Assembly (NCBI GenBank): GCA_902791035.1
Contig: CADAUA010000009.1
Coordinates: 1 to 64,000 of the forward strand
Length of the DNA stretch: 64,000 nucleotides
Direction: 5' to 3'
From: an uncultured Coriobacteriaceae bacterium
GTDB taxonomy: Bacteria > Actinomycetota > Coriobacteriia > Coriobacteriales > Atopobiaceae
Shown here in pieces: positions 1-54,881 of the stretch; position 1 is the first letter of the stretch, and the number at the start of each line of letters is the position of its first letter. The notes beneath the pieces are model-generated. The model was not told where the DNA came from. It saw only the letters and a list, made by a program, of their open reading frames with translations, and searched no databases. The translations under genes and the position numbers were made by a program.

Positions 1-248
1 TCTGCCGCAGCCCCGGGGGTGCCAGCGCTCCTACCTGCGGTTCTTCTCACTGGCCCGCCACACGGGCGGCAGACGATTGGCAGGCCTTGCGGTCAGAGGT
101 GGTGCAACCCCCTAGCGTCTGCCGCACGCCCGGGGGTGCCAGCCCTCCTACCTGCGGTTCTTCTCGCTGGCCCGCCACACGGGCGGCAGACGATTGGCAG
201 GCCTTGCGGTCAGAGGGGGTACCACCCCCTAGCGTCTGCCGCACGCCC
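1..248. repeat. 117-bp tandem repeat with alternating CGTCTGCCGC words
   Basis: Two consecutive copies of a 117-base unit (1-117 and 118-234) differ at only about eight positions, and the first 14 bases of a third copy follow (235-248). Each unit starts with (CG)TCTGCCGC and carries the inverse GCGGCAGACG about 65 bases later, so the word alternates in orientation along the array. The array lies just after the dnaE stop codon and may continue to the left of the window. The core CGTCTGC is the same as in the arrays at 4355-4587 and 5849-6200. Confidence 0.9.
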
Positions 249-4603: not shown

Positions 4604-5584
4604 TCACATCCGTACCCTGTCGTGGCCCAAGAGCAGCTGTCGCAGATCTCCCCTGGCCTGTAACCAGTCATCCGTCCTCTCTGGAATCCTCCTGCCGAGC
4701 GCCCACGCCACCTGGCGCATCGTCACGTCGAAGGCCACCGGGTCGCTCACCTGCGAGGCATCGACTTGGAACGAGCGATAGCCCAGGGCAGTAACGAGAT
4801 TGTCCCGGCGACGGTCCTCCTCGATCTTGCAGTCGTGGTCGTGACCCAGATACTCCGCCCTGACGTTGGTCCCCGGCCACGAGATGTCTGGTCTCACGAC
4901 CTCCCTGTCAGGCCGATCAAGCAGGAATACCTCTTCGTCTTTAATCTTGATGCCCCTGTTGAAGAGAGCACCCCCGAGACCATATCCACCCATCCGCGCT
5001 GGCATGCAGCACAGCATGTAGAGGACGATCTCGCGTGGGGAGACAGCGCCATCGGCAAGAAGCGCAGCGGCCCGGCGGCACCTTTCGATTGCCGCCCGGC
5101 GACCGCTCCTCGCGATGAATTCCCGAATTCGGGTCACCGAGGTCAGTGCCTCCCTTCGCACGATGTCGCCATGCTCCGGCTCGAGCCAATACCCCGCGCA
5201 CAGGGAGAGTCCAAGGCGTACTAGGGCGGTCACGCCGAGGATGGGGGCCATCTGCACAAAGGCGAGTTCCGGCGTGCACATGTGAATTCCCGGCGCGACG
5301 ACCCGCACAGCCCCAGGAGGAATGTCCCCGCGCCAGCGGTGGAGGGAGAAGCCCTCGAGGTTGCGGCTCCCGACGTTGTCCCTCACCAAAACGTCAATAC
5401 CGGTAGCCCCGCTCGGGATGGGAAACGCCGGCATGGGCGCCGCGCAGATTCCCGCCGCATCAAAGTCGAACTTGTCCAGGCCCGACGGGCCGGCGACGCT
5501 CGCGTCCATCCTCTCGAGGGACGAAGGTGGGGAGGCCCGCAGGACTGTGGGTCCGTGGCTATACCAGTACCAGATGGCACTCAT
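4604..5584 (-). CDS. DUF559/AbiEi-like predicted PD-(D/E)XK protein, copy A
   Basis: Unnamed protein of about 326 residues, a diverged paralogue of the gene at 53586. Shared landmarks are an N-terminal HGPT-LRA-PP / CGPTALEWLRAVPP block, a central PG-H(L)-C-PEL-F-Q segment, and a C-terminal nuclease-like block PDI-W-V-EY-RRR-L-G-VD. This resembles the organisation of actinobacterial DUF559 proteins related to Vsr endonucleases and AbiEi antitoxins (family knowledge). Copy A reads AEYLGHDHD where copy B reads VEYDSDEWH, so the second acidic residue and the histidine are altered and catalysis may be lost. The start is uncertain: ATG 5584 aligns with the paralogue, ATG 5611 and TTG 5632 also lie in frame, and none has a good Shine-Dalgarno. 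Word arrays flank it on both sides. Confidence 0.75.
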   Translation of the reverse strand: MSAIWYWYSHGPTVLRASPPSSLERMDASVAGPSGLDKFDFDAAGICAAPMPAFPIPSGATGIDVLVRDNVGSRNLEGFSLHRWRGDIPPGAVRVVAPGIHMCTPELAFVQMAPILGVTALVRLGLSLCAGYWLEPEHGDIVRREALTSVTRIREFIARSGRRAAIERCRRAAALLADGAVSPREIVLYMLCCMPARMGGYGLGGALFNRGIKIKDEEVFLLDRPDREVVRPDISWPGTNVRAEYLGHDHDCKIEEDRRRDNLVTALGYRSFQVDASQVSDPVAFDVTMRQVAWALGRRIPERTDDWLQARGDLRQLLLGHDRVRM

Positions 5585-5848
5585 GTGGCTGCAGATGCAC
5601 TTCAACGTCATACCCCCAGGTCGCTCGCCCAAGACGGCGTCAGCCTAGGGGACGAACCTTCCACGAACCTTCCGCCGCGCTTACGGCAATCTTCCACCAG
5701 TCTTCCAGCCACCTTCCCAGCCGCAGGTGAGAGGGGGTGAAATCAAACAGGAAGGCCGGGATGCGACGTCCTGCAAAGACTGGCGTATTCACCAAACTGT
5801 CAACCGGACATGCCAGCGAGGACGCACGCATCAGGCGACCCAACGGCC

Positions 5849-18472: not shown

Positions 18473-18750
18473 AAGAAGGTCCCTCCTGTATGCCGGCGTC
18501 GGAAGGCCAGCGGAGGGGCGCACCCCTGCGCGATAGCCCTCCCACGCACCGCGTGGACAGTCCCGCGGGTCTTGTCCCGCGAGCCCACCCCCATGCCGTG
18601 CCCGACGTGGGAATTCGGCGGCCATCGCCTCCCCCGGGGTCGCAGCCTGCCGGCTCGCCCGGGCTCTTCGTGCCCGCTCCTCTATCGTTGTGGGCTAGGC
18701 TAGCACGTCGCGCAACACCCGACAACGTCCTCGGGTCGCAGTCCCCGGCC

Positions 18751-25121: not shown

Positions 25122-25292
25122 CGTAACACCTGTACGCGCCACCTGCGCGCGGCACTTGGAAGTGACATGTCATCTGCAGGTGTCGGAACCAAACACCGCT
25201 ACTTGCATAAGCGCAGGTAGAAAGCCCGTTGCCCTTCTTATCCGCTTCCACACCCCACCTGCAAGTGACATGTCATCTGCAGGTGGCGACAA
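25122..25292. repeat. CCACCTGC / GCAGGTGG word locus with duplicated 23-mer
   Basis: A 23-base sequence starting AAGTGACATGTCATC is repeated exactly at 25160-25182 and 25263-25285. Around the second copy, 25257-25288 forms a 32-base palindrome (CCACCTGCA ... TGCAGGTGG) with 14 of 16 positions paired and a central TGACATGTCA. Shorter CCACCTGC and GCGCAGGT words lie at 25139-25146 and 25211-25218. It fills the 388-base gap between paaK and the gene at 25347, where I see no coding sequence. Confidence 0.85.
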
Positions 25293-52983: not shown

Positions 52984-53041
52984 TGTCACGGCACCTCGGT
53001 CCTGCCTGTCACGGCACCTCGGTCCTGCCTGTCACGGCACC
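52984..53041. repeat. 23-bp tandem repeat (TGTCACGGCACCTCGG...)
   Basis: Two exact 23-base copies (52984-53006, 53007-53029) and 12 bases of a third (53030-53041), with further TGTCACGG copies at 52977 and 53045. It lies directly after the GH3 operon terminator and before the GTTGCC word array. No gene is visible from 52896 to 53585. Confidence 0.85.
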
Positions 53042-53056
53042 TGCTGTCACGGCCAT

Positions 53057-53306
53057 GTAGGCAACTCTGACCTGATACGTCCAAATCGGCTCTACCCGCC
53101 AGTTGCCCACGCCCCCGTCCGTAGGTGACTCCGGCTCAAGACGCCACAGTCGACTGCGACGCCCATTTACCCACATGTCGACCCGTGGGTAACTCTCAGA
53201 TCGACCATCGCGGTCGACTCCTGTGCCGGATCACCCACGTCTTTATATGGAGGGAACTCGGGTCTTGAGCATCCCGGTCACCCGCGGCACCAAGTTGCCT
53301 ACGTCC
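53057..53306. repeat. GTTGCCYACG word array, upstream flank of nuclease gene B
   Basis: Both orientations of a degenerate word: GTAGGCAACT (53058), AGTTGCCCACG (53101), CGTAGGTGACT (53120), TTTACCCACA (53166), GTGGGTAACT (53185), TCACCCACGT (53231), GTTGCCTACGTCC (53294). Adjacent copies form imperfect inverted pairs. The array ends about 280 bases before ATG 53586, and no words occur in between. Confidence 0.75.
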
Positions 53307-53585
53307 CCATCCGACGGGAACTTCATCCCTAGCCGTACCAACCCCACCTTACCCTCTCCACCATTCCTCCACAGGAAGCGCCACACACCTCGGACGAACC
53401 CGCAGACCATACCGCCCGTTGCCCCAAGGATGCACCGTGCTCGAAAAACGCCGTACGAGACGATATGTCCTCGCGAAATTGGGTAGCGTCACAAGCACGA
53501 CCAGACTCCCCACGCTGCAAGCAAACAAGGGCGTCCATAAGGACAGTCCTGTACGAACCTGCCCGCCAGCGTCGAAGGGAGCACC

Positions 53586-54602
53586 ATGTCCGTCATCATC
53601 TGTGGACCCACCGCCCTCGAGTGGCTCCGCGCCGTCCCGCCCAACGTCTGGGACATCCAGCCGCTGGACCGCGAAGTCGACCTCGAGCGGGAGCACACCG
53701 ACTTCCGCGAGGCGGCTCGTCTGGACCTCGCACGCGTGGGCGTAGAGCGCCGACCCCTCCACGTCCTCGTACCCAAGGGACACCGTCGCAGCGAGTCCGC
53801 CCTTGTCCACTCCCACGAGACGTCCCTGGCCACCCTACCGGCTGGGCTCGTCTTCGAGCCCAGTCCGGGAATCCTGGTCTGCGGACCTGAGCTGACCTTC
53901 TGCCAGCTGGCCCGCAAGCAGTCGCTCGTGGGGGCCACAGTGCTGGGATGCGAGCTCACCGCCCGCTACTCCCACTTCTCGAAGCTGGTTTCCGGCTACT
54001 ATGAGCGGCCCGCGCTCACCTCCCCAAAAAGGCTGCGGGAAGCCATGGACGAGCTCCGCGGCCTCTACGGACTGGCCGCAGCCCGCCGGGCACTCGCGCT
54101 GGTGCTCGAGGGGTCGCGCTCGCCCATGGAAACCGCCCTCGCCTGCGAGCTGAGCTTCCCCGTTGCCATGGGAGGGTGCGGCTTCGACCGCCCGCAGCTC
54201 AACTACGAGGTCAAACTCGATGACGTGGCGGCCCGTATTCTGGGCCAGCGCCACTGCTACCCAGACATCGCTTGGACTGACCAGCAGGTGGGCGTGGAGT
54301 ACGACAGCGACGAGTGGCACACCGACAAGGACCACGACCGTCGACGGGCAGAGGCGCTCTCCCACACGGGCTGGTCCACATACACGGTCGACCTCGACCA
54401 GATCCACAAGCCGAGCGAGCTCGCCAAGACCGTCGACTTCCTGGACGGCCTCCTACCCCGCCACGGTACGCCCGACCACGCCCAACAGCTGGAGCTGCAC
54501 GAGAGGCTACTCAAGGCCACGCGATTCGGGCTGGGTCTTGAGGCTGCGCTCTTCCCCTTTGCCCCACCGGCGAGCAGGGTCAAGATCCACTGCCATTCGT
54601 GA
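53586..54602 (+). CDS. DUF559/AbiEi-like predicted PD-(D/E)XK nuclease, copy B
   Basis: Protein of 338 residues, diverged paralogue of the gene at 4604. The N-terminal part (CGPTALEWLRAVPP; SPGILVCGPELTFCQLA near 98) and a helical middle (SPMETALACELSFP) lead to a C-terminal nuclease block HCYPDIAWTDQQVGVEYDSDEWH followed by DHDRRRAEALSHTGW and VDLDQI. The E-Y-D, Asp-x and WH residues match the DUF559/Vsr-like active-site pattern, so this copy looks catalytically intact. AGGGAG lies 6 bases before the ATG. Word arrays of GTTGCC(T/C)ACG flank it on both sides. Target and role are unknown; see findings. Confidence 0.8.
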   Translation: MSVIICGPTALEWLRAVPPNVWDIQPLDREVDLEREHTDFREAARLDLARVGVERRPLHVLVPKGHRRSESALVHSHETSLATLPAGLVFEPSPGILVCGPELTFCQLARKQSLVGATVLGCELTARYSHFSKLVSGYYERPALTSPKRLREAMDELRGLYGLAAARRALALVLEGSRSPMETALACELSFPVAMGGCGFDRPQLNYEVKLDDVAARILGQRHCYPDIAWTDQQVGVEYDSDEWHTDKDHDRRRAEALSHTGWSTYTVDLDQIHKPSELAKTVDFLDGLLPRHGTPDHAQQLELHERLLKATRFGLGLEAALFPFAPPASRVKIHCHS

Positions 54603-54658
54603 GTGACGCCGGCCCTCACCAGAGGCGTCGGTCTTCGTGGGGGACGCCCACAGGGGGA

Positions 54659-54881
54659 GTTGCCTACGGGAGCAGACGGGGGCAACTGGGGTGGCGAGGC
54701 TTTGGGGAGCGTCGAAGCCGGGGTTGCCTACGGGTGCGGACGTAGGCAACCCCGGCCTAGTTTCCCGCGAGGACCCGGGAGGTACAGTTGCCTACGCGTC
54801 CGGATGGGGGCAACTCGGTGGCGAGGCCATAAAGGCGCTCCAAACACGGACTCACCCACGGCTGGAACCGTGGGTGAGTCC
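54659..54881. repeat. GTTGCCTACG / CGTAGGCAAC hairpin array, downstream flank of nuclease gene B
   Basis: Four hairpins in a row: AGTTGCC / GGCAACT (54659-54688), a perfect GGGGTTGCCTACG / CGTAGGCAACCCC (54720-54732, 54741-54753), AGTTGCC / GGCAACT again (54786-54815), and a perfect GGACTCACCCACGG / CCGTGGGTGAGTCC (54848-54861, 54868-54881). The array begins 57 bases after the nuclease-like stop. Some hairpins are joined by GGTGGCGAGGC, which occurs twice. No gene is visible between 54603 and 54962. Confidence 0.9.

Follow-up and report, generated by a model that had tools for sequence, protein, structure and literature searches.

The window analyzed here, a 64,000-nucleotide stretch of a contig from an uncultured Coriobacteriaceae bacterium, harbors a gene (gene B, encoding the protein P0001) that is enclosed by two arrays of the word GTTGCC[T/C]ACG (Table 1). 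On both flanks the step between successive palindromes is exactly 64 bp, and the half-sites within a palindrome lie 18 bp apart. The exact word occurs at 53102, 53294, 54659, 54723, 54741 (minus strand), and 54787. With up to one mismatch, 40 matches were counted in the window compared to 9.1 expected, a number reached by 0 of 100 shuffles. Autocorrelation was maximal at a lag of 64 in the upstream array (z = 6.7) and at lags of 64 and 128 in the downstream array. A sequence-only reading of this DNA had placed arrays of the B word on both sides of the gene, and they lie where it put them. Its distances required small corrections, from 57 to 56 bases between the stop (54602) and the first downstream word (54659) and from about 280 to about 265 bases between the end of the last upstream palindrome (~53323) and the start of the gene. 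It included neither the exact 64-bp phasing nor the copies in trans.

Table 1. Genes, arrays, and word elements in the 64,000-nucleotide window
Feature	Position	Strand	Description
Gene B (P0001)	53586..54602	+	338 aa
Lone half-site	53057-53066		Beside the upstream array
Upstream array	53101..53323		Four imperfect AGTTGCCYACG palindromes, at 53101, 53165, 53229, 53293
Downstream array	54658..54880		Four palindromes, at 54658, 54722, 54786, 54850
Copy A (paralogue L005)	~4604-5632	-	342 aa; GCAGACGTTCGG words on both flanks
Second copy-A-word site	69..239		Two head-to-tail GCAGACG...CGTCTGC pairs; CTACCTGCGG (~148-157) and TTCTTCTCGC in between
Dispersed element of paralogue L011	25153..25285		Two 30-bp GTCACTTGCAGGTG palindromes 103 bp apart; core GCAGGTAG between them, 25213-25220

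The open reading frames adjoining gene B encode a GtrA-like membrane protein and a DAHP-synthase-like protein, as judged by inspection without a domain search. Just before the upstream array, and separate from it, lies a 23-bp direct repeat (TGTCACGGCACCTCGGTCCTGCC, 52984-53042) with two full copies and a partial third. A defence-system reading of the locus was rejected, with PADLOC and NCBIfam matches at chance level only. Copy A, described earlier as a paralogue with another word, proved to be just that: its own word was found on its two flanks, and its product is 29% identical to that of gene B (alignment A1). A placement of copy A at 41 to 44 kb was discarded, the exact words there being chance matches in coding DNA.

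The AF2 model of P0001 has a mean pLDDT of 86. Since Foldseek with this model returned nothing at an E value of 0.001, the domain assignment rests on a second-look structural alignment together with weak profile and Pfam matches. In that alignment, residues 1 to 174 are AbiEi-antitoxin-like, resembling residues 67 to 195 of AbiEi (6y8q; Z = 6.6) and also Rv2827c, while residues 179 to 291 resemble a Vsr/EDxHD-type nuclease, with Z scores of 8.8 to 3r3p (root mean square deviation of 2.0 over 92 residues) and 6.4 to 1vsr. The 3r3p match is the EDxHD homing endonuclease I-Bth0305I, to whose PDB entry P0001 also gave a weak profile match (E = 0.22). The Pfam family MTES_1575 REase (PF18741) was matched weakly by 15 of 15 B-like members (best E = 9.9e-06); P0001 itself scored 20.4 bits, under the gathering threshold of 38.2. 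No match to Y1_Tnp (PF01797) was found in P0001 or the 15 B-like members (Pfam, E = 0.1), the genome's other proteins being outside the scope of this search. Five residues, inferred to be the EDxHD active-site positions, are highly conserved among 159 family members: E182 and D227 (159/159 each), H245 (158/159), E238 (155/159), and D251 (144/159). Near-invariance of such catalytic-type residues implies a working nuclease, for which no cleavage data exist. The paralogues L009 and L010 carry N at the otherwise conserved E238 (alignment A1) and may have lost activity.

The genome containing the window (2.69 Mb, 37 contigs) yielded 14 matches to P0001, corresponding to about 13 genes, with 27 to 55% identity over the matched stretches. 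In the Atopobiaceae, family members were detected in 132 of 140 genomes, with 1 to 16 copies each; relatives with family genes include Olsenella, Thermophilibacter, and uncultured Atopobiaceae. The scan of named genomes was made with an alignment of B-like members, as the alignment of 13 paralogues was too diverse for scanning; queried with P0001 alone, the named genomes gave no matches. Searches of 50,697 phage records and of viral contigs gave no match; one distant match was located on a 900-kb Collinsella record.

A locus-specific word, defined as a 10-mer present at least three times on each flank, was found on both flanks at 57 of 143 family loci, compared to 3 of 572 shuffles and 9 of 250 cross-locus pairings. 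About 40% of the loci thus pass this strict two-sided test and 60% fail; at the failing loci, such as the syntenic L015-L020 group, arrays are weaker or absent. For the clearest cases in the genome of gene B, upstream and downstream flanks of the same locus scored 219 (L003), 209 (L007), 108 (L012), and 60 (L009) against each other, while the highest cross-pair scored 38. The array period differs between paralogues, with 31 bp for L003, 64 bp for B, 95 bp for L007, 115 bp for L002, and 42 bp for L012. The closest paralogue of B, L002, has an additional 19-bp tandem array upstream of the gene (TTGTCCCAGCTCGTTCTCT, 6.6 copies, 880-1005). In the flanks of L011 and L012, and at L182-L197, two paralogues with different words have a common element interior, TCTACCTGC..TTATAT..GCAA; this stretch, AT-rich against the GC-rich genome, is possibly the site of a bending protein.

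Co-evolution of word and protein within a family had been proposed in the sequence-only reading, and the correlation between protein clade and word by which it could be checked was found. Across the 73 loci with a motif, similarity of words followed similarity of proteins (Mantel r = 0.30, 0/2000 permutations); mean word similarity fell from 0.83 to 0.55, 0.39, and 0.30 as the protein bit-ratio dropped from >0.8 to <0.3. In a tree of 28 L003-like proteins, sister pairs have common words, namely GGGTACGTACAC in L040/L249 and L158/L248 and GTGTACAC in L043/L255. The gene flanks of a neighboring clade (L250, L251, L254, and L256) carry GGGTATGTACAC, a one-base variant of GGGTACGTACAC. The genome-wide presence of GGGTATGTACAC in four genomes was predicted beforehand from these flanks, and the counts were 116 copies in G104, 58 in G099, 69 in G100, and 80 in G094, all of them without GGGTACGTACAC. 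In G089, G090, G095, G097, G103, and G112, by contrast, GGGTACGTACAC is present in 12 to 115 copies and GGGTATGTACAC in 0 to 4; the GGGTACGTACAC count of G112 stands without its matching gene, which was outside the gene set. The one-base shift between sister clades is thus mirrored genome-wide, which together with the Mantel result supports the proposed co-evolution. Across the genus, separation of the two words is imperfect: G083, G086, G091, and G107 have 11 to 27 copies of GGGTATGTACAC and no gene assigned to this variant here, and G087 has 8 copies of GGGTACGTACAC, with its examined gene (L042) lacking that word. An initially guessed word, GTGTACGTACAC, had no matches in 31 genomes and was replaced by GGGTACGTACAC.

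Genome-wide counts, which rest on searches, revealed word copies well beyond the genes. In the genome of gene B, the L003 word has 46 sites, several at loci without a family gene (reversed-word control, 0), and the L011 word has 103 (control, 3), largely arranged in pairs of 30-bp palindromes that are separated by about 103 bp and whose outer flanks are unrelated. A model of the B unit gave 137 matches on both strands of this genome, forming about 21 arrays besides those of gene B, nearly all with 64-bp steps. While there are at least 50 matches to the B-unit model in this genome, no more than 3 were found in any of 139 relatives. None of 59 trans loci examined contained a recognizable family gene or remnant. 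The idea of self-contained elements in the earlier reading was incomplete: the gene is indeed flanked by its own word, but it belongs to a population of word copies that extends through the genome and is otherwise without genes. Word elements are mostly intergenic; 18 of 20 B arrays overlap no predicted gene according to simple GC3-based gene calls, and the 16 with both neighbors called include 8 flanked by convergent genes and 1 by divergent genes.

Between B units of different loci, identity is 0.77 in the word columns and 0.33 in the spacers; the former value is inflated, as matches were selected by similarity to the model or word, whereas the phasing is not. In the genome G089, the innermost opposed words are exactly 92 bp apart in 15 of 19 elements, and words on the same strand are 21/22, 32, or 43 bp apart, equal to two, three, or four helical turns. 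L011 elements have an interior of 72 or 73 bp in 17 of 20 cases. At a fixed offset, the sequence CTASCTGC occurs in 13 of 19 G089 elements and 18 of 20 L011 elements (shuffle means of 0.05 and 0.19, respectively), and it is also found in the copy-A-type site at window positions 69 to 239. It is absent from the B arrays, so this core is not universal. Enrichment of CTASCTGC and TTCTCGCC in flanks across the family was not trusted alone, as control stretches 700 to 1,500 bp away were similar, likely due to codon usage; the core is therefore claimed solely from its fixed position inside elements.

Among the neighborhoods compared, no clean pair of a filled and an empty site with target duplication was obtained. 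Word-free orthologous neighborhoods exist, but with wider rearrangement alongside, and L266/L269 and L241/L271 were not counted as empty sites because the words are absent but the neighborhoods differ. Some elements keep one position in several species, which indicates that turnover is slow, if movement occurs. In G090, two word elements enclose a 3.9-kb segment that carries a TetR-like and a GH3-like gene (L298, G090:C3:1753300-1757300). It is missing in G097, where the outer flank at the matching place is joined to the gene's downstream element. This difference suits element-mediated rearrangement, and homologous recombination between repeats would explain it too. A weak alignment of L264 and L283 suggests that one element has its interior in opposite orientations in G090 and G112, as recombination between the inverted arms would produce. 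At L179 (955-1778), two L003-type arrays with 31-bp units surround an unrelated, cargo-like gene, apparently for a transcriptional regulator.

We lean towards the explanation that every nuclease is paired with its own cognate set of dispersed non-autonomous elements, the two functioning in the manner of REPIN-RAYT although the enzyme is unrelated. It draws on what was observed, i.e., words in cis and in trans, their geometry, genome specificity, and intergenic siting, their codivergence with the protein, and the conserved catalytic-type residues. Word binding and cutting by the protein, and the copying or mobility of elements, are inferences, with neither binding nor cleavage data available. 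In such a pair, the word would be recognized by cooperating, helically phased dimers of its nuclease. It would mark short non-autonomous elements spread over intergenic DNA, with the gene itself surrounded by further copies of it. The nuclease might nick or cut at or near word-bound elements, plausibly at the CTASCTGC core in two families, and repair from another copy could let elements spread, expand, and homogenize, in outline as proposed for REPINs with RAYTs. Inherited together, word and protein would drift jointly, and several mutually distinct pairs could coexist per genome. Points against this explanation are the lack of a clean filled/empty pair, the elements that stay in place across species, the 60% of loci failing the two-sided test, and the missing core in B. 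It seems fairly probable to us that these loci constitute a new class of intragenomic repeat-enzyme systems in Coriobacteriia, with AbiEi-Vsr nucleases, private phased dispersed elements, an origin independent of REPIN-RAYT, and up to about ten orthogonal protein-word pairs per genome.

For REPIN-RAYT, co-evolution of enzyme and repeat has been proposed (PMC3116915). The Coriobacteriia loci are similar in that a nuclease gene has its own palindromic word in flanking non-coding DNA (both sides at the 57 loci mentioned above), that the word is dispersed between genes as inverted doublets with a less conserved middle, and that several separate word classes exist per genome. They differ in the enzyme, which is AbiEi-like plus Vsr/EDxHD and not an HUH/Y1 transposase as in RAYT (TnpA-REP), so that the defining enzyme test failed, and also in arrays phased by helical turns (21, 31, 64, and 92 to 103 bp) and the central core in two element families. 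I-Bth0305I, the best structural match of the C-terminal domain, forms dimers on a nearly 60-bp target (PMC3943268), a length close to that of the 64-bp unit. Unlike this enzyme, the B family is free-standing, chromosomal, and multi-paralogue, was not found in an intron or phage, is fused to an AbiEi-like domain, and has recognition-like words beside the gene and in trans. The N-terminal half resembles AbiEi and Rv2827c, and AbiEi-type proteins bind multiple inverted repeats (PMC7319586), but the match is partial, covering only the AbiEi C-terminal domain and beginning after its first 66 residues; moreover, the B family differs from both in its fused nuclease domain and in arrays on both sides and in trans. 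The MTES_1575 domain, matched weakly by B-like members, is a Vsr-family REase described in fusions to HEPN and transglutaminase domains and, unlike the B family, without associated repeats (PMC3710099). In the literature searched, which covered few subscription journals, we found no system that couples a Vsr/EDxHD or AbiEi-like protein to dispersed repeats, although this is not proof of absence.

If the explanation holds, dedicated enzyme-repeat populations arose at least twice in bacteria with unrelated enzymes, and REPIN-RAYT exemplifies a general strategy. The family would provide a natural series of proteins with diversified DNA specificity, and its many protein-word pairs, including sister clades that differ by one base, would open the protein-DNA specificity code and the evolution of that code to direct tests. 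It would also account for the abundant intergenic repeats in Atopobiaceae, which are common gut bacteria.

The main rival, which is not excluded though we consider it unlikely, is a domesticated chromosome-organizing or regulatory system, in which genome-wide binding of the protein to its phased arrays bends, loops, or insulates DNA or shapes the ends of transcripts. On this view, the elements are immobile sites that are useful to the host and maintained by selection. Words that are conserved while spacers and interiors diverge to background, helical-turn spacings suggestive of a fixed nucleoprotein assembly, the mostly intergenic siting away from divergent promoters, and elements that stay put across species all agree with it. 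However, genomes hold several independent word systems that occur in some species and not in close relatives, which fits a parasite-like population better than a core role in the host. Moreover, the trans elements are mostly confined to genomes with the matching gene, and mere binding does not need almost invariant nuclease residues.

It appears improbable that an unrelated transposase, such as a RAYT, moves the words as ordinary REPs or MITEs and that the nuclease genes merely lie beside or among them. The repeats do resemble REP or REPIN doublets in their inverted pairs, variable middle, and intergenic position, and the RAYT (PF01797) content of the genome of gene B was not covered by our searches. 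Yet paralogues of a single genome are flanked on both sides by their own respective words, and word divergence tracks the nuclease phylogeny down to the genome-wide one-base switch, a pattern that would be absent if the gene were a bystander.

Autoregulation only, i.e., repression of the gene's own promoter via inverted repeats as in AbiEi and Rv2827c, is suggested by the AbiEi-like N-terminal half and by the binding of AbiEi-type proteins to multiple 23-bp inverted repeats at their own promoters (PMC7319586). We regard it as very improbable, since arrays also lie downstream, about 265 bp separate the start codon from the end of the upstream array of B, and the majority of copies belong to unrelated loci. 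Given the trans arrays it is inadequate as a complete account, but it may still contribute to the function.

Ordinary terminators of neighboring genes, which the earlier reading had named as a possible refutation, are hardly credible, and so are chance tandem repeats of such genes: B units do form imperfect palindromes, often located downstream of genes, but none of the array units was predicted to be an intrinsic terminator (one call elsewhere in the region versus 1.2 in shuffles), and the exact 64-bp phasing, a word common to about 21 other loci, and codivergence with the protein would be left unexplained. A reading of the arrays as RNA genes was dropped as well, as Rfam detected no RNA family in them. 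Elsewhere in the window, a lysine riboswitch was identified on the minus strand at 18526-18692 (Rfam RF00168, 58.3 bits).
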